From NCBI GenBank assembly GCA_029224465.1, contig JAQXUQ010000008.1, positions 1 through 64,000 of the forward strand: DNA of 64,000 nt, written 5' to 3'. The DNA comes from Bacillota bacterium (GTDB taxonomy: Bacteria > Bacillota > Clostridia > Lachnospirales > Lachnospiraceae). The notes below the pieces were generated by a model. That model saw only the letters and a list, made by a program, of their open reading frames with translations. It was not told the origin of the DNA and did no database searches. Positions 3,844 to 35,091 of this stretch are shown in pieces; position 1 is the first letter of the stretch, and each line of letters starts with the position of its first letter. The translations under genes and the position numbers were made by a program.

Positions 3844-5097
3844 ATGAATAAAAATAATTCTTATGTTTTAGACAGTGCAGATAACTTAAATTTCCTATAC
3901 GCATGCAGGAACAATCTGCTGAAATTTGGTATTCATTTCCCGGCGCCTTCAGGAAGCTCCTATTGGCTTGGAAGTGACGGAACGCCTTGCACTGACAGAG
4001 AGCGGGAGACCTGGATCACAGCGAGGATGGCGCATGTTTACAGTCTCGCGTCCATGCTTGGCATGGAGGGTGCAAAGGATCTGGCATCGAAGGCGATTTC
4101 TGGACTTTCGAACGAACTGTACGATGAGATCTATGGCGGATGGTATGCAGCCGTTACCCCGAAAGGAACAGGCCATGGGCCAAAACAGTGCTACGCCCAT
4201 GCTTTCGTTATCCTGGCTGCATGCAGCGCAGAACTTGCAGGCATTCCTGGAGCTGCAGAGTTAAGAAAGAGAGCGGAAGCAGTTTATGATCAGTATTTCT
4301 GGCAGGATGAACTTGGGCTTTCGGTCGATAGCTGGAACAGAGAGTTCACTATACTCGATACCTATCGTGGACTTAATGCAAACATGCATACGGTAGAGGC
4401 TTTTCTGGCAGACGCAGATGCAACAGGGCAGATTGTTTATCGTGAACGAGCCGGAAAGATCATCGCTCACGTCATCCGCTGGGCGAAGAATGCAGACTGG
4501 AGAATTCCGGAACACTACAACGAAAAGTGGAGCATTGATAAAGACTTTCATAAGGATCAGCCGGATGATAAGTTTAAGCCGTACGGAGTAACACCGGGAC
4601 ATGGAATAGAATGGGCAAGGTTGATTCTGCAATGGGCATTATCGACTTTTAAAAGTTCAGCTGATTATGAACAGTATCTGGAGGCTTCCATAAATTTATA
4701 TCATAGAGCTATGGAAGATGGATGGAATGTCGATGGAAAACCGGGAATTGTATATACAACTGACTGGAACGGATGCCCTGTCATCCACGACAGGATGCAC
4801 TGGACATTGGCAGAAGCAATTAATACATCTGCGGTACTTTTCCATGTTACACACCAGCAGCGATATGCGGATGATTATTATGACTTTATGAAATATCTGG
4901 ATGAGAAGGTATGGGATCATAATAAGGGATCATGGTTCCACCGGTTAGATAAGGACAACAGGGTGGTAGAGACTGGCTGGTCTGGAAAATGCGATTTATA
5001 TCATGCCACACAGTCAACTCTGATTCCCTTGTATTCTCCGGCAGTGTCGATTGCTGCTGCAGTTCAAAATAAAATGTTCTTCACAGGGATAGGATGA
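3844..5097 (+). CDS. AGE-family sugar isomerase (YihS-like aldose-ketose isomerase)
   Basis: A 417-residue (alpha/alpha)6-barrel protein of the N-acylglucosamine 2-epimerase superfamily. It aligns along its length with E. coli YihS as I recall it: TWITARMAHVYSLAS, YGGWYAAV, KQCYAHAFVILA, YRGLNANMHTVEAFL, TPGHGIEWARLIL and KCDLYHATQ. The two His in TPGH and LYHA correspond to the catalytic pair. YihS interconverts mannose, fructose and glucose and isomerises sulfoquinovose, so the exact substrate is open. ATG 3844 gives a YihS-like length; an in-frame ATG at 3793 would add 17 unrelated residues. Neither start has a good ribosome site, perhaps because the 5' flank was altered by the adjacent IS remnant. 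Confidence 0.8.
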   Translation: MNKNNSYVLDSADNLNFLYACRNNLLKFGIHFPAPSGSSYWLGSDGTPCTDRERETWITARMAHVYSLASMLGMEGAKDLASKAISGLSNELYDEIYGGWYAAVTPKGTGHGPKQCYAHAFVILAACSAELAGIPGAAELRKRAEAVYDQYFWQDELGLSVDSWNREFTILDTYRGLNANMHTVEAFLADADATGQIVYRERAGKIIAHVIRWAKNADWRIPEHYNEKWSIDKDFHKDQPDDKFKPYGVTPGHGIEWARLILQWALSTFKSSADYEQYLEASINLYHRAMEDGWNVDGKPGIVYTTDWNGCPVIHDRMHWTLAEAINTSAVLFHVTHQQRYADDYYDFMKYLDEKVWDHNKGSWFHRLDKDNRVVETGWSGKCDLYHATQSTLIPLYSPAVSIAAAVQNKMFFTGIG

Positions 5098-5143
5098 GGA
5101 TGGAGATACGATCCGCATCAACTTTTGAGCATCAGTCTGGCAC

Positions 5144-5172
5144 TTTTCATCGTATATAATTTATGATATAAA
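5144..5172 (+). promoter_or_regulatory. Probable nudC promoter
   Basis: TTTTCA (5144-5149) and TATAAA (5167-5172) are separated by 17 bp in the AT-rich gap before nudC. A TATAAT at 5155-5160 overlaps but lacks a good -35. No operator is evident. Confidence 0.4.
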
Positions 5173-5240
5173 AGATGTAAAAATTTTCGGGCAAAACAGA
5201 ACGGATTGCCATGTTACTGTCCGCAGAGAGGAGATTTATA

Positions 5241-6119
5241 TTGATTCAGGATATTGCGCCTTATCGTTTCCGCAACGAATTTAAAGATACGCAGGACGTT
5301 GTCATGCAGGACAACGATCCTGTTTTTGCATTCGAGGACAGAACGGTCCTGTGCCGGCAGAACGCAGACGGCACCTATGCGTTTCCGACCGTGCAGGAAT
5401 CCCTGGCAGGCGGCACGGACCCGGAGCTGCTGCTGTACCTGTTCGCGGAAGAGCTGGGAGCGGAAAGGCGGAACTACTATCTGTACCGCTGTCACGACAC
5501 GCAGGAAAGTCTGTCTGTACGTGGCTATACCTATACGAACATTTCAGCCTTCCGCAGCGCCGGCCCGAAGAATGACTGGTTTGCCTGCATGAGCGCATTT
5601 CATCTTTTCTGCTGGTACAAAGATACCCGCTTCTGCGGCAGATGTGGCAGCAGGATGGAGTATTATCATAAAGAGCGCGCCATGATCTGCAGGAAGTGCG
5701 GGAACATTGTGTATCCCAGACTGAATCCCGCGGTCATCGTCGGTGTGACAAAGGGAGATTCGATTCTTTTGACCCGTTACGCCGGAAGAGCCTATGGCGG
5801 AAACGCGCTGGTTGCGGGATTTACAGAGATCGGCGAGACACTGGAACAGACGGTCGCCCGTGAAGTTATGGAAGAGACCGGTATTCATGTGAAAAACATC
5901 CGTTATTACGGCTCACAGCCGTGGGGACTCGCGTCCGATATCCTGATGGGCTTTTACTGCGATGCGGAGGACGGAGAGGACATTCTGATGGATGAGAACG
6001 AGCTTGCTGCCGCGAAGTTTGTCCGGCGGGATGCGCTTGGCGAAGAAAACCGGAATGTTTCTCTTACAGCGGACATGATCATGAATTTTAAAGAAAAAGG
6101 CCGTCTGGTTTTCCAGTGA
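5241..6119 (+). CDS. nudC: NAD(H) pyrophosphatase / NADH-decapping Nudix hydrolase
   Basis: A 292-residue NudC-type protein. It hydrolyses NAD(H) to NMN(H) and AMP and can remove NAD caps from RNA. Features in order: a variable N-terminal domain, a four-Cys zinc ribbon (FCGRCGSRM and MICRKCGN), then the Nudix box GFTEIGETLEQTVAREV followed by MEETGI, then SQPWGLASDILMGF, the family's SQPW motif. I choose the TTG start at 5241 because AGAGAGGAG (5225-5232) lies at proper spacing; ATG 5211 in the same frame has no ribosome site. The stop codon lies in the loop of a terminator hairpin shared with the convergent pyrI. Confidence 0.88.
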   Translation: MIQDIAPYRFRNEFKDTQDVVMQDNDPVFAFEDRTVLCRQNADGTYAFPTVQESLAGGTDPELLLYLFAEELGAERRNYYLYRCHDTQESLSVRGYTYTNISAFRSAGPKNDWFACMSAFHLFCWYKDTRFCGRCGSRMEYYHKERAMICRKCGNIVYPRLNPAVIVGVTKGDSILLTRYAGRAYGGNALVAGFTEIGETLEQTVAREVMEETGIHVKNIRYYGSQPWGLASDILMGFYCDAEDGEDILMDENELAAAKFVRRDALGEENRNVSLTADMIMNFKEKGRLVFQ

Positions 6120-6130
6120 AAACCAGACGG
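6101..6130. terminator. Shared terminator between nudC and pyrI
   Basis: A perfect 13-bp stem (6101-6113 with 6118-6130) has a 4-nt loop. The nudC TGA (6117-6119) straddles the loop and stem. Reading on the minus strand, the stem is followed by CCTTTTTCTTT, so it is best suited to end the pyrB-pyrI transcript; on the plus strand the T-run is weak. Confidence 0.75.
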
Positions 6131-6137
6131 CAATTGT

Positions 6138-6581
6138 TTATAACTCGCCCGAATCATTGGCCTCATACCGCTCGTCGCAGTACCGGCAGCGGTAGATTTC
6201 CTTCTTTTCATCTGCCAGATAGAAAATGTGCGGAAGAGAAGGCTCGACAGAAGTGATGCAGCGGGGATTCTGACAGCGGATGATCCCGCGGATCTCCTTT
6301 GGAAGAGAAACTTTGCGCTTCTCGACAATCTGTCCGCTCTTGATGACATTGATCGTGATGCTGCGGTCAATGAACGCGAGCACATCCAGATTCAGCGTGT
6401 TAATATCACACTCCACTTTCAATATATCTTTCTTGCCCATTGCGTTGCTCCGCGCGTTCTTAATAATGGCGACGGTGCAGTCGAGTTTATCCAGTCCGAG
6501 GTAGTGATAGATTTTCATGGCATTGCCTGCCTTGATATGATCCAGCACGAATCCTTCTTCAATCTTACCAACGTTAAGCAT
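6138..6581 (-). CDS. pyrI: Aspartate carbamoyltransferase regulatory chain
   Basis: A 147-residue PyrI protein. The N-terminal allosteric domain (EEGFVLDHIKAGNAMKIYHYL) binds CTP/ATP in the well-studied enzymes. The C-terminal zinc domain has the expected four Cys (CQNPRC and CRYC), which form the contact with the catalytic chain. ATG 6581 is chosen over an upstream in-frame ATG at 6635 because GAAAGGAGC precedes it. It lies 77 nt downstream of pyrB in the same orientation, as usual for clostridial pyrBI. It implies nucleotide feedback control of pyrimidine synthesis. Confidence 0.93.
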   Translation of the reverse strand: MLNVGKIEEGFVLDHIKAGNAMKIYHYLGLDKLDCTVAIIKNARSNAMGKKDILKVECDINTLNLDVLAFIDRSITINVIKSGQIVEKRKVSLPKEIRGIIRCQNPRCITSVEPSLPHIFYLADEKKEIYRCRYCDERYEANDSGEL

Positions 6582-26989: not shown

Positions 26990-29900
26990 TTATTCGTCTT
27001 CCCTGCGCATATTGTTCTGCGCTCCCGCAAGCAGAAGCTTGATCCGGTTCAGCTGGTTTACTTCCGATGCGCCCGGGTCATAGTCAATTGCCGCAAGATT
27101 CGCCTGCGGATAAAGCTGGCGGACTTTCTTCGCAACACCCTTTCCTACAACATGGTTCGGCAGGCACCCGAACGGCTGAATACAGATAATGTTCGGAACG
27201 CCGGATTTAATCAGCTCCACCATTTCTCCCGTCAGGAACCAGCCCTCGCCGGTCTGGTTGCCGATGTCGACAATCGGCTCCGCATAGGAAACCAGCGTAT
27301 AGATGCTCGAAGGCGCCTCGAAATGCCTGCTCTTGTCATAGGCCTTGTAAATCGGACGCAGAAGTACTTTCTCGATCACAAAAATCGCTGCGCGCATCGC
27401 TGCGGCAGTCTTCTTGCTTGTCCCCAGATACTCCGCTTTGTAAATCTGGTTATAGAAGCAGTAGAGCATAAAGCCCATCAGATCCGGAACGACGGCTTCA
27501 GCGCCTTCATTTTCCAGTGTTTCCACAAGATGGTTGTTGGCAGCGTAAGAGTACTTGACCAGTATCTCGCCGACAACGCCGACTCTCGGCTTTTTGAGGT
27601 CTTCCCGGACCGGAACCGCGTCAAATTCCCGGATCATCTGAATGCACATTTTCTGGACTTTCCGGATCGGGAGTCCTTTCATATTCACAAGGAATTCCGT
27701 GCATGTTTCAAGCCACTTCTGATGCAGCGCTTCGACAGAGCCTTTTTCTTTTTCGTACGGACGCATTCTGTAAACGCACTTCATCATGACATCGCCGAAC
27801 ATGACCGCGAACGCAAGCCTCGCAAGGAGCTTCATTGAAATCTTGAACCCGGGGTTCCCTTCCAGACCTGACAGGTTGGCGGAAATAACCGGAATCTGCT
27901 CCATGCCGGCTTTTTTGAGCGCTCTTCTGATAAAGCCGATGTAGTTTGAAGCGCGGCACCCGCCGCCTGTCTGCGACATGATGATCGCCGTATGGTCCGG
28001 ATCATACTGACCGGATTCGAGCGCCTCCATGAACTGTCCCACAACATACAGGGAAGGGTAGCAGGCGTCGTTGTTTACATACTTCAGGCCGTAGTCGACT
28101 GCTTTCCGGTTGTCGTTCTTTAAAACAACCAGATTATAGCCGCAGGATCTTGCCGCCGGTTCGATCAGATCGAAATGAATCGGCGACATCTGCGGGCACA
28201 GAATCGTATACCTCTCTTCGAACATTTTTTCGGTGAAAGGCACCTTTTTAATCGCGCTTGAGCGTATGGTACGCTTTGTTTTTCTGCGTTCGCGGATCCG
28301 GATCGCGGCAATCAGGGAGCGGACGCGGATTCTTGCGGCGCCCAGATTGTTGACCTCATCGATCTTGAGGCAGGTGTAGATCTTGTCGGAGCCGGAGAGA
28401 ATATCATTAACCTGATCCGTCGTGACCGCGTCCACGCCGCAGCCGAACGAATTGAGCTGGATCATATCCAGATCATCCCGCGTTTTGACATAGCTCGCAG
28501 CTGCGTACAGACGGGAATGGTACATCCACTGATCCAGTACGACAAGGGGCCGCTCGGGCGAGGCCAGATGGGATATACTGTCCTCGGAGAGAACCGCGAA
28601 GCCGTAGGAACTGATCATCTCCGGGATGCCGTGATTGATCTCCGGGTCGAGATGGTACGGACGCCCTGCGAGCACGATGCCGCGGACGTGATTTTCCTGC
28701 ATATAGCGCAGCACCCGCTCACCCTCCGCCTGAATGTCTTTTCTGGTCTTTGCGAGCTCGTCCCATGCGTCCGATGCCGCGGCGATCACTTCCTTCTCCG
28801 GCAGTTCTTTAAACTCGCGCGTAAGGCCTTCCGTGATGGTTTTAAGATCAGTAAATGCCATAAACGGATGGCGGAAAACAACGCTCCCGTTCATGATTTC
28901 CTCTACGTTGTTCTTGATGTTCTCCGGATAGGAGCTGACGATCGGGCAGTTATAATGATTGTCCGATTCGCCAAATTCCTTCCTCTCGTAGAATAAAGAC
29001 GGATAGAAGATGAAGTCGACGCCGTGCTGAATCAGCCACTGGATATGTCCGTGCGTGATTTTGGCGGGATAGCAGGCGGACTCGGACGGAATGGATTCAA
29101 TTCCCATCTCGTAAATCTTATGTGTGGAAGGCGGCGACAGAACAACACGGTATCCGAGCTTTGTAAAGAACGTATACCAGAACGGATAGTTCTCGTACAT
29201 GTTCAGAACGCGGGGGAGCCCAACCGTGCCGCGGGCGGCCTGCGCAGCAGGAAGCGGACGGTAACCGAAAATTCTGCGCATCTTATACTTGTAAAGGTTC
29301 GGGATGCCGTTATCGGTTTTTTCAAGGCCGAGGCCTCTTTCACAGCGGTTGCCGGAGATAAACTGCCTTCCGTCGCTGAAATGGTTGATGGTCAGTCTGC
29401 AGTTGTTATTGCAGCGGCCGCAGTTTGAGAGCGTTGTCTCGAACGTCAGATTTTCCATCTCTTCAAAAGAGAGCATGGAAGTCGGACGACTCTCGTCATA
29501 GCGCTCCCGTGCGATCAGGGCGGCGCCGAACGCGCCCATGATACCGGCAATGTCCGGCCGGATCACCTGGCCGTCCGCGATTTTCTCGAGCGCGCGCAGA
29601 ACCGCGTCGTTGTAGAAAGTTCCGCCCTGAACGACAATATTTTTACCGAGTTCCTCCGCGGAGGAAACCTTCATAACCTTGAACAGTGCGTTTTTAATGA
29701 CAGAGTACGCAAGACCGGCGGAAATATCGGAGACTTCTGCGCCTTCCTTCTGCGCCTGTTTGACTCTGGAATTCATAAAAACAGTGCAGCGTGTGCCAAG
29801 GTCTATAGGATGCTGCGCAAAAAGAGCGGCCTTCGCGAAATCCTGAACCGAGTAGTTCAGGGATTTCGCGAATGTCTCGATAAAGGATCCGCAGCCGGAA

Positions 29901-31240
29901 GAGCATGCTTCGTTCAGCGTGACGGAATCCACAGCGCCGTTCTTGATCCGGATACATTTCATATCCTGTCCGCCGATGTCGAGGATACAGTCGACCTGCG
30001 GATCAAAATAAGACGCGCCGTAATAGTGCGCGATCGTTTCCACCTCTCCGTGATCGAGCTTGAACGCGGATTTTAAAAGCGCTTCACCGTAACCGGTAGA
30101 GCAGCTGCCGGCGATCGAAGCGCCCTCGGGCATCTTTCGGGCAAGCTCCGTGATTCCGCGGATCGCTGTTTTGATCGGAGAACCGTTGTTGGAAGAATAG
30201 AAAGAGTACAGCAGCTCGCCGTTTTCGCCGACAAGCGCGAGCTTGGTTGTCGTCGAGCCCGCGTCGATGCCGAGGAACGTACGCCCTCTGTAATTTCTGA
30301 TATTGCCGGTTTTAACCTTATGCTTCGCGTGCCTTGCACTGAATTCGTCATATTCTTGTCTGGTCGCGAAGAGCGGGTCCATTCGGTGGACTTCGAACTC
30401 CATCCTCATGGGTCTTGACGTCTTGCCGATCAATTCATCCAGAGAAAAGACAACGTCTTCATGCGCATTAAAAGCACTGCCCATCGCGGGAAACAGGTGA
30501 GAATTCTCAACATCAATGATATGCTCATCGTCGAGCTTCAGTTCCCGGATAAAAGCCGTCTTCAGCTCTGTCAGGAAATGGAGCGGTCCTCCAAGGAATG
30601 CAACGTGTCCGCGGATCGGTTTACCCTGCGCGAGTCCGGAAATTGTCTGGATGACAACAGCCTGGAAAATGGACGCGGCAAGGTCTTCTTTACGCGCGCC
30701 GTCGTTGATCAGGGGCTGAATGTCCGATTTTGCGAAAACGCCGCAGCGCGCGGCTATGGTATACAGCGACTGGTAATGTTTCGCGTACTCGTTCAGGCCT
30801 TTGGCGTCCGTCTGCAGAAGAGAAGCCATCTGGTCGATAAAAGAACCTGTGCCGCCAGCGCAGGTTCCGTTCATTCTCTGCTCGACGTTGCCGTTTTCAA
30901 AATAAATGATCTTGGCATCTTCGCCGCCAAGTTCAATCGCAACATCGGTTTTCGGAGCGATCTTCTTAACGGCAGCTGCCTCCGCGACAACTTCCTGCTC
31001 GAACGGGATGCCGAGATGATTCGCGAGCGAGAGGCCGCCGGAACCCGTGATCACGGGATGAACCTGTATATCTCCGAGCTTTTCCTTCGCTTCGACAAGC
31101 AATGTGTAAAGTGTCTTCCGGATTTCGGCGTGGTGGCGGCGGTATTCACCGAATGCCAGATTGTCCGACGGATCCATGACTGCGATTTTGACGGTTGTAG
31201 AACCGATATCAATGCCTAAAGTGTAGTCTTTCGAACGCAA
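26990..31240 (-). CDS. Two-activase acyl-CoA dehydratase-type fusion protein
   Basis: A 1416-residue protein. Residues about 5-290 and 325-600 are two BadF/HgdC-type ATPase activase domains (LGIDIGSTTVKIAVMD, GTCAGGTGSFIDQMA; LGIDAGSTTTKLALVG, EACSSGCGSFIETFA). Each carries a Cys suited to a bridging [4Fe-4S] cluster. A Cys-rich block follows (NCGRCNNNCRL, GNRCERGLG), then DUF2229 and HgdB-type regions (ESACYPAKITHGH, NSFGCGVDAVTTDQ, NNDACYPSLYVVGQ, TGGGCRASNYIGF, QPFGCLPNHVVGKG). By family knowledge it should couple ATP hydrolysis to very low-potential electron transfer onto an Fe-S protein. Its natural substrate is unknown. I choose a TTG start (plus 31238-31240) because AGGAG precedes it by 8 nt. 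It stands alone. Confidence 0.85.
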   Translation of the reverse strand: MRSKDYTLGIDIGSTTVKIAVMDPSDNLAFGEYRRHHAEIRKTLYTLLVEAKEKLGDIQVHPVITGSGGLSLANHLGIPFEQEVVAEAAAVKKIAPKTDVAIELGGEDAKIIYFENGNVEQRMNGTCAGGTGSFIDQMASLLQTDAKGLNEYAKHYQSLYTIAARCGVFAKSDIQPLINDGARKEDLAASIFQAVVIQTISGLAQGKPIRGHVAFLGGPLHFLTELKTAFIRELKLDDEHIIDVENSHLFPAMGSAFNAHEDVVFSLDELIGKTSRPMRMEFEVHRMDPLFATRQEYDEFSARHAKHKVKTGNIRNYRGRTFLGIDAGSTTTKLALVGENGELLYSFYSSNNGSPIKTAIRGITELARKMPEGASIAGSCSTGYGEALLKSAFKLDHGEVETIAHYYGASYFDPQVDCILDIGGQDMKCIRIKNGAVDSVTLNEACSSGCGSFIETFAKSLNYSVQDFAKAALFAQHPIDLGTRCTVFMNSRVKQAQKEGAEVSDISAGLAYSVIKNALFKVMKVSSAEELGKNIVVQGGTFYNDAVLRALEKIADGQVIRPDIAGIMGAFGAALIARERYDESRPTSMLSFEEMENLTFETTLSNCGRCNNNCRLTINHFSDGRQFISGNRCERGLGLEKTDNGIPNLYKYKMRRIFGYRPLPAAQAARGTVGLPRVLNMYENYPFWYTFFTKLGYRVVLSPPSTHKIYEMGIESIPSESACYPAKITHGHIQWLIQHGVDFIFYPSLFYERKEFGESDNHYNCPIVSSYPENIKNNVEEIMNGSVVFRHPFMAFTDLKTITEGLTREFKELPEKEVIAAASDAWDELAKTRKDIQAEGERVLRYMQENHVRGIVLAGRPYHLDPEINHGIPEMISSYGFAVLSEDSISHLASPERPLVVLDQWMYHSRLYAAASYVKTRDDLDMIQLNSFGCGVDAVTTDQVNDILSGSDKIYTCLKIDEVNNLGAARIRVRSLIAAIRIRERRKTKRTIRSSAIKKVPFTEKMFEERYTILCPQMSPIHFDLIEPAARSCGYNLVVLKNDNRKAVDYGLKYVNNDACYPSLYVVGQFMEALESGQYDPDHTAIIMSQTGGGCRASNYIGFIRRALKKAGMEQIPVISANLSGLEGNPGFKISMKLLARLAFAVMFGDVMMKCVYRMRPYEKEKGSVEALHQKWLETCTEFLVNMKGLPIRKVQKMCIQMIREFDAVPVREDLKKPRVGVVGEILVKYSYAANNHLVETLENEGAEAVVPDLMGFMLYCFYNQIYKAEYLGTSKKTAAAMRAAIFVIEKVLLRPIYKAYDKSRHFEAPSSIYTLVSYAEPIVDIGNQTGEGWFLTGEMVELIKSGVPNIICIQPFGCLPNHVVGKGVAKKVRQLYPQANLAAIDYDPGASEVNQLNRIKLLLAGAQNNMRREDE

Positions 31241-31483
31241 AATTGATCTCCTGAAAGCACAAAGCCGCCGGCCGGAACCGGAGCTTTCTTATTTAATAGT
31301 GTAAACTGATCGAATCACTATCGGATTCTAAATCGCGCGCAATTTAAAGTCAACAAACCCACGTACCTCAAAAAATGAAAATTGTCTTAAATGTCACCGG
31401 GGGCGGGCCGGCGTTCGTTTACTTTTACGGGTGCGGATGCTATTCTAAAATCCGGTTGAACTAAAAAAGAAAGGAAAAACCAC
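31241..31483. other. Divergent intergenic region
   Basis: Between the large minus-strand activase gene and the plus-strand rhomboid-like gene. The activase leader contains a GAAAGC/GCTTTC pair (31253-31258 with 31283-31288) around a GGCCGG-rich core. The middle is AT-rich. The plus-strand promoter is listed separately. No gene is visible. Confidence 0.5.
31418..31446 (+). promoter_or_regulatory. Promoter of the rhomboid-like / sigma-like unit
   Basis: TTTACT (31418-31423) and TATTCT (31441-31446) have a 17-bp spacer, with TGC directly before the -10 as an extended element. It lies 37 bp upstream of ATG 31484, whose ribosome site is AAAGAAAGG. Confidence 0.55.
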
Positions 31484-32533
31484 ATGAGCTGGTTCGAAAA
31501 GAAATTTTCAAGATACGCGATCCGAAACCTGTCACTGGTTCTGATCCTGTGCTATGCATTCGGATATCTGATTCAGATGATCAATCCTTCTTTTATTCTG
31601 TATCTGACACTGAATCCTTACGCGATCCTGCACGGTCAGATCTGGAGGATTTTTACATGGCTGATCATTCCGCCGGAGCAGACAAACCTGATCTTCGTCC
31701 TGATCATGCTTCTGTTTTATTATTCTATCGGAACGTCGCTCGAGCGTACATGGGGGACCTGGCGTTATAATGTCTATATGTTCGCCGGATTTTTATGCAC
31801 GATCGCCGGTGCGTTTCTGATGATGGGATACGCTTATCTCTTTCATGCGGGCATGATTGAAAGACTCGGCGCTGCCGCGTTCTTTGCGGGAGTCAGCCCG
31901 GCGTTCAGCACATACTATATTAACATGTCTATTTTTCTCGCGTACGCGGCGACTTTCCCGGACGCTGTCGTGCTATTGATGTTCATACTGCCGGTCAAGG
32001 TGAAATGGCTCGGGTTTGTCTATGCTGTACTGCTCGGTGCTGATTTTGTTCAGGCAGCGGCCGCAGGACAGTTCTATCTTTGCTTTGCCATGCTGGCATC
32101 GCTTCTGAATTTCCTGATCTTCTTCCTTCAGAGGAAGAATCCGGCTTTTCTGCACCCGCAGGAGGCAATGAGAAGGGCCCGTTTCCGGAAGGAAATGTCG
32201 TCCGGAAGGGATACGGCCGCAGGACCTTCGCAGTCTCCTTCTGCAGCCGCGCAGGCAGCGCGCAGTGAACGGAATGCGGGAGAAAACATGAGAAGAAAGA
32301 TGGCCGCGAGACATCGCTGCGCCATCTGCGGAAGAACCGAGCTGGATGATCCGACACTGGAATTCCGCTACTGTTCCAAATGCGACGGGACCTATGAATT
32401 CTGTCAGGATCATCTGTTTACGCATGTTCACGCAAAGGGCGGAATGGGACCGGTGCCGTTGGCTTCCGTGACAGGCAGTCAGGAAACAGAGCATAAGGAA
32501 TCCTCTGGACAGGATCCGGATATTGGAAAGTAG
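31484..32533 (+). CDS. Rhomboid-like membrane protein with C-terminal zinc ribbon, catalytic motif absent
   Basis: A 349-residue protein. About six TM helices fill residues 12-215 in a rhomboid-like pattern (LNPYAILHGQIWRIFTWLIIP, LFYYSIGTSLERTWGTWRYN, FPDAVVLLMFILPVKVKWLG). The catalytic GxSG motif and the matching His of active rhomboids are not visible, so it is probably a pseudoprotease. A polar Ala/Ser-rich linker (about 225-275) leads to a cytosolic Cys4 zinc-ribbon (CAICG, then YCSKC) and FCQDHLFTHVH. It is the first gene of a three-gene unit with the sigma-like protein 8 nt downstream. Role unknown; membrane anchoring or recognition of a partner is plausible. Confidence 0.7.
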   Translation: MSWFEKKFSRYAIRNLSLVLILCYAFGYLIQMINPSFILYLTLNPYAILHGQIWRIFTWLIIPPEQTNLIFVLIMLLFYYSIGTSLERTWGTWRYNVYMFAGFLCTIAGAFLMMGYAYLFHAGMIERLGAAAFFAGVSPAFSTYYINMSIFLAYAATFPDAVVLLMFILPVKVKWLGFVYAVLLGADFVQAAAAGQFYLCFAMLASLLNFLIFFLQRKNPAFLHPQEAMRRARFRKEMSSGRDTAAGPSQSPSAAAQAARSERNAGENMRRKMAARHRCAICGRTELDDPTLEFRYCSKCDGTYEFCQDHLFTHVHAKGGMGPVPLASVTGSQETEHKESSGQDPDIGK

Positions 32534-32541
32534 GGTGAGGT

Positions 32542-33291
32542 ATGGACGAAATCAGCCGTGAAGAAAGTTTTGTCAGGATGCTGCAGGCATTGATCACAAG
32601 TGCGCAGAAGAACAGAGGCGTTGTGACGAGCAGACAGATCGAGAAAGCGTTCGATGGTATGCAGCTCTCCAAAGAGCAGCTCCTGCAGGTAAAGAACTAT
32701 CTGAAAGACAATAAAATCGGCATTGACGAGCCGCTTGACGCGGATGAGAGGATGAGCCGGGAGGATCATGATTATCTTGCGGATTATCAGGAAACCGTGG
32801 CTTCCATCGAGCAGCCTTCGGACGGCGTATTCGACGCGATCAAGCTGAACGCGATGGCGGGGGACAAAGAGGCGCAGCAGGAGCTTGCCGAGCTGATGCT
32901 GCCCAAGGTTGTAGATATCGCGAAACTTTATGCCGGTCAGGGGGTTTATATGGAGGATCTGATCGGCGCCGGCAATATGGCGCTGGTACGCGGAACCAAG
33001 CTGCTCGGCCCTCTCGAAAAGCCGGAAGAAGTGGAGCCGGACCTTGCGCAGAGAATCATGAAAGCCATGGAAGATCTGATCGAACAGGAGCTGGAAGAAC
33101 ACGCGACCGCGGCGGATGCCGCCGAAAAATCCAATAAGGTGCTGGACAAAGCGAATGAGCTTTCGGCGGCGCTCGGAAGAAAAGTCACGGTTGGAGAGCT
33201 GGCAGCGGAAGGCGAGCTTTCGGAAGAAGAGATCATGGATGCCATCAGGATCACCGGTAACCATATTGACAGCATTGATTACAAATCGTAG
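32542..33291 (+). CDS. Sigma-70-like protein lacking promoter-recognition regions
   Basis: A 249-residue protein. Residues 8-55 resemble sigma region 1.1 (NRGVVTSRQIEKAFDGMQLS). Residues about 105-150 resemble regions 1.2-2.2 (AGDKEAQQELAELMLPKVV, IAKLYAGQGVYMEDLIGAGN), the part that in true sigma factors contacts the beta' clamp. Residues about 205-245 resemble region 3 (LGRKVTVGELAAEGELSEEE). Regions 2.3-2.4, needed to melt and read the -10 box, are replaced by an acidic helical stretch, and region 4 is missing. It could bind RNA polymerase without directing it to promoters. Recognition is by eye and from memory. Spacing to neighbours is 8 and 19 nt. Confidence 0.6.
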   Translation: MDEISREESFVRMLQALITSAQKNRGVVTSRQIEKAFDGMQLSKEQLLQVKNYLKDNKIGIDEPLDADERMSREDHDYLADYQETVASIEQPSDGVFDAIKLNAMAGDKEAQQELAELMLPKVVDIAKLYAGQGVYMEDLIGAGNMALVRGTKLLGPLEKPEEVEPDLAQRIMKAMEDLIEQELEEHATAADAAEKSNKVLDKANELSAALGRKVTVGELAAEGELSEEEIMDAIRITGNHIDSIDYKS

Positions 33292-33310
33292 GGTGGAAAG
33301 TCGAAAGTCT

Positions 33311-33730
33311 ATGGAAACGCAGGGGAATGATTATAAGTACATCATGGAAGGCCTCACGGACATTGCGGTGGGTGCCAGATATACCTATGCCGAGCTGGAA
33401 GATAATCCGGAGCTGAGCTATAAATTCCGCTGCATTATCAAACGGTTTTTTGAGCAGGAAGTAGGACGGGAGACAAGCCTTGAGAGCCATCTGTATTATA
33501 TGAAGCCGGAAGATGAAAGCTGCAGAATTTACACACAGATCAAGGCAAAGGTCCGCGTATACTGCCCTGTCACCAGCAAATCGTCCGGCAGAACAAAGAC
33601 GATCTACAAGGAACAGACTCTGGCGGCGGATGAACTCTCTAAGATACCGCTTTCGGAAAAGAACCGCCGCGGCATGATCGTGCATGAACTGCAGCTCTCG
33701 AAGCTCGGTCTTATGACATTTGCCATGTAG
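33311..33730 (+). CDS. Conserved-looking protein of unknown function
   Basis: A 139-residue soluble protein, last in the rhomboid-like/sigma-like unit. ATG 33311 begins METQGNDYKYIMEGLTDIAVG. Basic and acidic residues are mixed through the sequence (ELEDNPELSYKFRCIIKRFF, VYCPVTSKSSGRTKTIYKEQ), with no signal peptide, TM helix or known motif. The frame is open upstream inside the sigma-like gene, but that part is a shadow. A clear terminator follows 16 nt after the stop. I do not recognise the family. Confidence 0.6.
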   Translation: METQGNDYKYIMEGLTDIAVGARYTYAELEDNPELSYKFRCIIKRFFEQEVGRETSLESHLYYMKPEDESCRIYTQIKAKVRVYCPVTSKSSGRTKTIYKEQTLAADELSKIPLSEKNRRGMIVHELQLSKLGLMTFAM

Positions 33731-33745
33731 CGGCATAGCTTTTTT

Positions 33746-33779
33746 AAATCCGCCGCACGATACGTCCGGTGGATTTTTT
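33746..33779 (+). terminator. Terminator of the rhomboid-like / sigma-like unit
   Basis: A 10-bp stem with one G-U pair (33746-33755 with 33767-33776) is followed by a run of T to 33779. It isolates the unit from recA. Confidence 0.85.
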
Positions 33780-33923
33780 AATGCCGCCGGCATATAATGA
33801 ATGCATGACCTGCAGCAGGCAGCGCGGTGAACCCGGACGCGCGCAAAAGCGTCCGCATATCTTACTTCAAATCGTGCCAACCGGCGGCATTTTCTGCAGC
33901 CGCGTCTTCATGTATCCTCGTTC

Positions 33924-33952
33924 TTGCAATCAAAAGAAGCGGATGCTATACT
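33924..33952 (+). promoter_or_regulatory. recA: recA promoter
   Basis: TTGCAA (33924-33929) and TATACT (33947-33952) with 17-bp spacing and TGC before the -10. The predicted start of transcription falls just before the LexA operator at 33962. The 140 bp upstream of it hold only short GC hairpins. Confidence 0.8.
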
Positions 33953-33961
33953 ACAAAACAA

Positions 33962-33973
33962 GAACACATGTTC
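33962..33973. promoter_or_regulatory. LexA (SOS box) operator
   Basis: GAACACATGTTC is a perfect GAAC-N4-GTTC dyad, the Gram-positive LexA (DinR) core. It sits at about +3 to +14 of the recA promoter, where bound repressor would block RNA polymerase. This predicts SOS induction of recA-recX. Confidence 0.85.
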
Positions 33974-34011
33974 TGTTTTGCTCGTTTCGTAAAGAAAGGA
34001 TTTATTATATT

Positions 34012-35091
34012 ATGGCTATGAATCGGGAAGACCGCGAGAAGGCATTAAGCGCTGCCGTATCGCAGATCGAGAAGGAGTTTGGCAAGGGCGCGATCATGAA
34101 GCTCGGAGACCCTTCCAACAATATGAATGTGGAGACTACGCCGACCGGTTCGCTGTCTCTGGATATTGCCCTGGGACTGGGCGGAATCCCGAAGGGAAGA
34201 GTTGTCGAGATCTACGGACCGGAATCTTCCGGTAAGACAACATTGACCTTACATATGGTTGCGGAGGTGCAGAGGCGCGGCGGTATCGCGGGATTCATTG
34301 ATGCGGAACACGCGCTGGATCCTGTCTATGCGCGCAATATCGGCGTTGACATTGACAATCTGTATATTTCCCAGCCGGATTCCGGTGAGCAGGGACTTGA
34401 GATCGCGGAGACAATGGTGCGTTCCGGCGCGATCGACATTGTCGTTATCGACTCTGTTGCGGCTCTTGTGCCGAAGCAGGAAATTGACGGCGAGATGGGA
34501 GATTCCCATGTCGGTCTGCAGGCGAGACTGATGTCTCAGGCGCTGCGCAAGCTGACAGCGGTCATTTCCAAGACAAACTGCACGGTCGTATTCATCAACC
34601 AGCTGCGTGAGAAGGTAGGTGTCATGTTCGGCAGCCCGGAAACGACAACCGGCGGACGCGCACTCAAGTTTTATTCGTCCATCCGCATGGATGTGCGCAG
34701 AATCGAGGCGATTAAGCAGAACGGAGAGGTCATCGGCAACCGTACCAGAGTCAAGGTTGTGAAGAACAAGATCGCGCCGCCGTTCAAGGAAGCCGAATTC
34801 GATATCATGTTCGGAAGAGGGATTTCGTATTCCGGCGACGTACTGGATCTTGCAGCAGGCGCGGACATCGTCAACAAGAGCGGCGCTTGGTACAACTATA
34901 ACGGCGACAGGATCGGACAGGGGCGCGAGAACGCGAAGAAGTACCTGGAAGATCATCCGCAGCTTCTGTATGAGATTGACAGAAAAGTGCGGGAGCACTA
35001 CGGACTCGATCCGGATGGCGCGAGGACGCCTGCGCCGGAGGTTACTGCGGCAGAGGACACCGCACAGGAAGCCGCTGTCGTTCAGGAATGA
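34012..35091 (+). CDS. recA: Recombinase A
   Basis: A 359-residue RecA. It forms filaments on single-stranded DNA for strand exchange and triggers LexA self-cleavage. Seen: Walker [27 protein letters not shown], Walker [12 protein letters not shown], loop L1 [30 protein letters not shown] and an acidic C-terminal tail. Two ATGs are possible, 34012 (MAMNRED) and 34018. AAAGAAAGGA lies upstream. recX follows 44 nt later, the usual partnership. Confidence 0.97.

Follow-up and report, generated by a model that had tools for sequence, protein, structure and literature searches.

Proteins of the rhomboid superfamily have in common a fold of six helices whose loops carry a WR motif and an E-x3-G-type motif. 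The eukaryotic Derlins, represented by DER1 and DUF1751, are rhomboid-like proteins that lack the catalytic residues, and we know of no Derlin with a zinc module of the kind described below. On the transcription side, zinc anti-sigma factors (ZAS) carry the motif H-x3-C-x2-C, and the two-part sigma factor RsoA-SigO includes a sigma-like protein without region 4. According to PMC7231995, YqgP (GluP) of Bacillus subtilis is a rhomboid protease and also an FtsH adaptor, its dead form still serves as adaptor for the degradation of MgtE, and its cytosolic domain binds Mn and Zn. Membrane control of a sigma factor is described for sigma-32, which SRP delivers to the membrane (PMC3866087). Here we analyzed a locus of a Lachnospiraceae bacterium in which a rhomboid-like gene and a sigma-like gene stand side by side; it lies within positions 1 to 64,000 of contig JAQXUQ010000008.1 (assembly GCA_029224465.1), and this whole stretch of 64,000 nucleotides is referred to as the window. 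The unit consists of the following features:

31418..31451, + strand: promoter-like site of sigma-70 type, weak (TTTACG-16-TAAAAT at 31424-31451, 9/12)
31484..32533, + strand: gene A, 349 aa; rhomboid-like membrane protein, probable pseudoprotease, with a C-terminal zinc-type module
32542..33291, + strand: gene B, 249 aa; sigma-A offshoot with regions 1.1, 2.1-2.2 and 3.0-3.1
33311..33730, + strand: gene C, 139 aa; small protein, seen only at this A-B-C locus
33746..33779, + strand: intrinsic terminator (fold z -4.4)

Genes A, B and C are co-directional on the + strand (31484-33730), with intergenic gaps of 8 nt between A and B and 19 nt between B and C. The terminator hairpin has a folding energy of -18.5 kcal/mol that was equalled by 0 of 200 shuffles. 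A reading made earlier from the sequence alone (hereafter the sequence-only reading) had described three close genes with these gaps followed by a terminator, and both the coordinates and the z score of -4.4 confirm it. A consensus terminator scan did not list the hairpin, probably because of the loop limit of the scan. The single promoter proposed in the same reading at 31418-31446 is present as a site, but a weak one: it matches at 9 of 12 positions, and the promoter scan of region 30000-35000 gave 6 matches against 3.5 +/- 2.2 in shuffles, no clear excess. The near relative L003 has exactly the same sequence here, while the three further relatives in the alignment differ. The dN/dS values against L003 are low for A (0.111), B (0.031) and C (0.070), so that all three look like real genes; in the comparisons with L004 and L046, dS is near saturation and gene C is not scorable. 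Across 47 fetched A-B loci, the two genes lie on one strand with a median gap of 15 nt (range -56 to 158 nt), and in most of 38 loci there is no space between B and C or the two overlap (median -2.5 nt), all these gaps being approximate as they come from a simple longest-frame caller with starts picked by rule and the first residue set to Met. The overlap between B and C suggests coupled translation. No known RNA family was found in the window at gathering scores. From this arrangement, A, B and C almost certainly form one operon.

The three genes differ in how far they are distributed. Of 299 Lachnospiraceae genomes, 286 have a match to the A profile (E <= 1e-8), as do 53 of 281 genomes of other Clostridia (63 of 291 in total, 10 being Lachnospiraceae); by hand count, the listed match extends into the tail of A in about 23 of these 53. 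B adjoins A in 48 of the 299 genomes (hand count among the matches listed), and a B-like frame of less than 350 aa lies away from A in about 64 further genomes, a hand count among matches listed to E ~2e-56 and mixed with SigA-length frames, which includes one contig-end piece, so that the true number may differ. Outside Lachnospiraceae (190 of the 196 genomes searched), no B-length gene was present among the matches listed down to E ~3.5e-44, all being of SigA length. The C profile matches 38 of the 299 genomes (E <= 1e-6), and outside the family it gave only two marginal matches, with E of 1.6e-4 and 2.3e-4. All 38 finds of C are beside A or B and 37 of them adjoin B; in genome G037, C is on a contig that carries the end of B. 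A scan for B among titled genome contigs yielded 14 loci, all Lachnospiraceae by title and some from animal gut, the nearest being RUG304, whose B is 97% identical (the prefix RUG presumably stands for rumen). In these loci A is upstream of B in 14/14, C follows in 13, and recA is downstream in 12, whereas other relatives have a gene for an M16C peptidase or a different gene downstream; in one of the 14, L015, the contig ends just behind B. The sequence-only reading had expected the genes to stay together in relatives, and the neighborhoods of C and the A-B adjacency among the matches listed agree with it.

For a closer comparison we used 84 A loci, 47 B-linked and 37 without an adjacent B; they were selected by the quality of their A or B match, include the near-identical L007-L011 and are no random sample. 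In the window, a large frame at 26990-31240 on the - strand is divergent from A, and its relative in L070 matches DUF2229 and BcrAD_BadFG (CoA-enzyme activase). This activase gene is upstream of A in 31 of the 47 B-linked loci and in 10 of the 37 others. Since the activase has no obvious link to the unit and also keeps its place by A, a conserved gene order says little by itself about joint function. In one rival reading, A and B share a transcript and do separate jobs, A as a general adaptor in membrane-protein quality control and B regulating transcription alone. The finding that most of the 299 Lachnospiraceae genomes, and other Clostridia, have A with no B next to it speaks for this reading, as do 29 aligned loci where B is alone, but the close one-strand spacing of the 47 A-B loci and the restriction of C to this locus do not, and we regard it as rather unlikely. 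Two loci have SRP-type neighbors, which may be chance. In L106, a genome rated 69% complete, an FtsY-type GTPase (Pfam SRP54) lies between A and C in the order A - GTPase - C (4125-6399), and no B was found between them; in L054, an SRP54-type gene similar to this GTPase is two genes behind C. Sigma-32 shows that a sigma-type protein can be controlled at the membrane (PMC3866087), as would hold for B in the reading given below, but it is a full sigma factor, and SRP genes occur at only these two loci here.

Concerning the membrane part of A, no rhomboid match was obtained for the window protein in Pfam. Among 38 A members, DER1 and DUF1751 were matched by one each (E 0.0056 and 0.0042, respectively), and the A profile searched against solved structures gave GlpG at E 0.021 and Derlin-1 at E 7.3; ribosomal zinc ribbons, starting at E 0.18, came close to the GlpG score. 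An HHalign comparison of the membrane part with 9 rhomboids of relatives, those passing a motif filter out of 17 candidate frames in 30 loci, covered 182 columns with E 0.00033 and a probability of 16.7%; two controls with reversed sequence reached E of 0.69 and 0.70. W54, R55 and G91 are invariant in the 38 members, E87 is nearly so, and the stretch GT.LE..WG is conserved; we take W54-R55 and this stretch to recall the rhomboid motifs. The membrane part contains neither a Ser nor a His that all 38 share, and A was therefore rejected as an active rhomboid protease with a GxSG serine and a histidine. The rhomboid family PF01694 finds a gene other than A in the source genome. Of the fold without catalytic residues claimed in the sequence-only reading, the missing residues stand, and the fold itself has weak profile matches only. 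Taken from these comparisons, A is probably a pseudo-rhomboid.

The weak matches and the common lack of catalytic residues place A near the Derlins and DUF1751, but a zinc module like that of A is not known from these. With YqgP, as described in PMC7231995, A would share a rhomboid-superfamily membrane part and a cytosolic domain of metal-binding type, and the link of YqgP to a divalent-metal transporter can be set against the CorA-type gene found beside A. However, YqgP has protease activity, and its metal-binding domain is N-terminal (PMC7231995), whereas A has a C-terminal Cys/His module and no invariant Ser/His. Of the 84 fetched loci, 14 (L108, L112, L113, L114, L119, L121, L123-L125 and L127-L131) have a CorA-type metal transporter gene directly in front of A and in the same orientation; one of these assignments was checked by Pfam and the others were made by clustering. 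By analogy, this neighborhood recalls YqgP and the Mg transporter MgtE.

The C-terminal tail of A is its best defined part:

32312..32431, + strand: zinc-type motif of A, residues 277-316, with five Cys and four His invariant in 38/38

The motif of the window protein reads H-x-C-x2-C-x14-C-x2-C-x6-C-x2-H-x3-H-x-H, and H277, C279, C282, C297, C300, C307, H310, H314 and H316 are invariant in all 38 members, so that the cytosolic Cys4 ribbon assigned earlier to A is in fact a 5-Cys/4-His module. These conserved residues suggest that the tail binds zinc. DUF7577 is matched by 17 of the 38 members and spans the tail in the window protein. A is not a ZAS-type anti-sigma factor, as its motif differs, with an H-x-C-x2-C inside a nine-residue Cys/His set. 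The full motif was also found in 17 of 20 hand-picked A loci outside Lachnospiraceae, 17 of these having been picked for a match extending into the tail and 3 for a match that stopped short of it. L188-L204, from other Clostridia families, have A homologues with nearly the same motif, and no B or C matches were found in the fetched stretches. Within Lachnospiraceae, the motif is present in 47/47 fetched B-linked A and equally intact in 37/37 A without an adjacent B, which argues against the holding of B as the primary function of A. This bears on the proposal of the sequence-only reading, a membrane-linked modulator of RNA polymerase such as a holder or decoy for core enzyme, which is taken here to mean that A would hold B at the membrane and B would act as the decoy. 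The operon does join a membrane protein to a sigma-like protein with core-facing parts, and B has kept these and lost the promoter parts as a decoy would, but A and its motif are more widespread than B and the holding of B as the main job of A is not supported; we consider the proposal as a whole highly unlikely.

The sigma-related parts of B are arranged as follows:

32581..32733, + strand: sigma region 1.1-like part of B (PF03979, E 5.8e-5)
32851..33003, + strand: sigma 2.1-2.2 part, the best conserved of B, with DLIGAGN at 32956-32976
33004..33099, + strand: place of sigma 2.3-2.4, where the promoter-melting aromatics are not kept
33100..33261, + strand: sigma 3.0-3.1 part, by Pfam match and alignment with SigA

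The window B matches the RpoD model of NCBIfam with E 8.8e-12 and its best PDB chain is a SigA (E 1.3e-9); in Pfam, regions 1.1 and 3 were matched, and region 2 weakly (E 0.018). At E 0.01, region 3 was found in 34, region 2 in 22 and region 1.1 in 19 of 39 A-linked B. The protein is acidic (pI 4.47) and has no Trp. Pfam and the SigA alignment thus concur with the sequence-only reading, in which B resembled sigma regions 1.1, 2.1-2.2 and 3 only. Compared with SigA/RpoD, regions 2.1-2.2 and 3.0-3.1 of B align and region 1.1 resembles, but SigA has in addition the 2.4 tryptophans, region 3.2 and region 4. All four promoter-melting aromatics (F, Y, W, W) are present in 20/20 SigA, against 0/39 A-linked and 0/29 unlinked B. 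The two W places have a Trp, at one or the other, in 1/39 A-linked and 0/29 unlinked B, and an aromatic residue remains at the Y place in at least 14/39 and at least 16/29, respectively, which points to a partial and not a total loss there. Region 4, which recognizes the -35 element, has no aligned residue in 39/39 A-linked B, and region 3.2 is also gone. More than 20 residues align to region 4 in 2 of the 29 unlinked B, and a few of these proteins may therefore be less truncated. B-like offshoots (L076-L105) stand alone in many Lachnospiraceae, in varied surroundings and mostly with QEGN in the 2.1-2.2 motif.

As the 2.4 tryptophans and region 4 are not kept, B was rejected as a plain working sigma factor. 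With the parts that melt the -10 and read the -35 lost, B is hardly a working sigma, and we are nearly certain, judging from its residues, that the A-linked B is a sigma offshoot that cannot work as one. B could instead be part of a split sigma that obtains region 4 from another protein in the style of RsoA-SigO. It holds regions 1.1 to 3, ends near where 3.2 would begin and lacks region 4 as the sigma-like protein of RsoA-SigO does; however, the region 2.4 tryptophans are gone too, and the operon offers no region 4 partner, since Pfam gave no sigma-region match for A or for C. Such an arrangement is barely credible.

The fate of the core-facing part is less clear-cut. In the DLIQEGN motif of 2.1-2.2, compared with 20 SigA, the D, L, G and N are kept in 39/39 A-linked B and the E in 29/39, and the Q is replaced by G in 39/39, whereas the Gln is kept in 26/29 unlinked B. 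This replacement could spoil core binding, and B may not bind polymerase. The simple core binding by B assumed in the sequence-only reading is thus favored by the core-facing parts that are kept and opposed by the Gly; we give RNA polymerase binding by B an even chance. In a tree of 133 columns obtained by a quick search, all 39 A-linked B come out together (SH-aLRT 99), as do the SigA proteins (100), and the unlinked B do not form a single group. When three more A-adjacent B were added, L138 joined the A-linked group, and L113 and L139, which have QEGN, fell outside it at a position in the tree that is not settled. This leaves two histories for the adjacency of A and B, repeated origin or an early origin followed by frequent loss. 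One explanation of these data is that B has left RNA polymerase altogether, its sigma-2/3 fold serving now as a protein-binding module with A and C at the membrane, and that the change from Gln to Gly marks the switch. The contrast in this residue between A-linked and unlinked B, and the single tree group of the former, would fit, but the rest of the motif is kept in all 39, 2.1-2.2 is the best conserved part of the protein, and L113 and L139 are next to A with QEGN outside the group. We consider this explanation somewhat unlikely.

The alignment of C (33 sequences) has one invariant column and four nearly invariant ones. At E 0.1, no Pfam family was matched by more than 2 of the 33 members; solved structures gave no match up to E 10, and the phage (phrog) and defence comparison gave nothing for C. 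A phage or defence origin of the unit was likewise rejected: B matches over the shared sigma stretch only (phrog_351, E 0.00023), A has weak matches over the tail only (phrog_3794, E 0.00083; phrog_6739, E 0.019), and B is not a full-length MzaA of the MZA anti-phage system, the similarity being confined to the shared sigma stretch at B residues 97-151 (E 2.4e-5 and 5.1e-4). Among the listed titles and abstracts of open-licence PMC papers, none mentioned this three-gene unit.

The reading that we favor, tentatively and short of calling it probable, is that A is a Derlin/YqgP-like adaptor and B a promoter-blind modulator on the polymerase side, set at the membrane through one operon. It starts from the gene order, the co-inheritance, the sigma parts lost and kept and the conserved Cys/His residues; contact among A, B and C, polymerase binding and a role with FtsH are what we infer from them. 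A, as a rhomboid-superfamily membrane protein without the catalytic dyad and with a zinc-type tail, would have a docking or adaptor role, acting by analogy as dead YqgP does for FtsH or Derlins do in ERAD. B, having kept the core-facing sigma parts, would be a modulator or competitor on the polymerase side and not a sigma. Since B is produced together with A and C, its level or location would be set at the membrane, which would tie transcription to the membrane or metal state. That B touches A has slightly less than an even chance. This membrane-set, polymerase-side modulator is favored on account of the tight operon, the restriction of C to this locus and the conservation of B, which is highest in 2.1-2.2; the main points against it are the Gly in place of Gln and the wide occurrence of A without B. 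A bolder version, decidedly unlikely, would be a membrane-coupled transcription brake of Lachnospiraceae, in which the promoter-blind B occupies core and a zinc-sensing A, as a bacterial Derlin, sets the supply and hands B or its rivals to FtsH.

A natural pseudo-sigma without its promoter-reading parts and a natural family of bacterial rhomboid pseudoproteases would each be of interest, and here they occur in one operon. A would be a direct test case for Derlin-like adaptors in bacteria, and a function found for it would apply across a large gut family, given the reach of its profile in the Lachnospiraceae. The operon hints at a possible link between membrane upkeep and gene expression in these bacteria.
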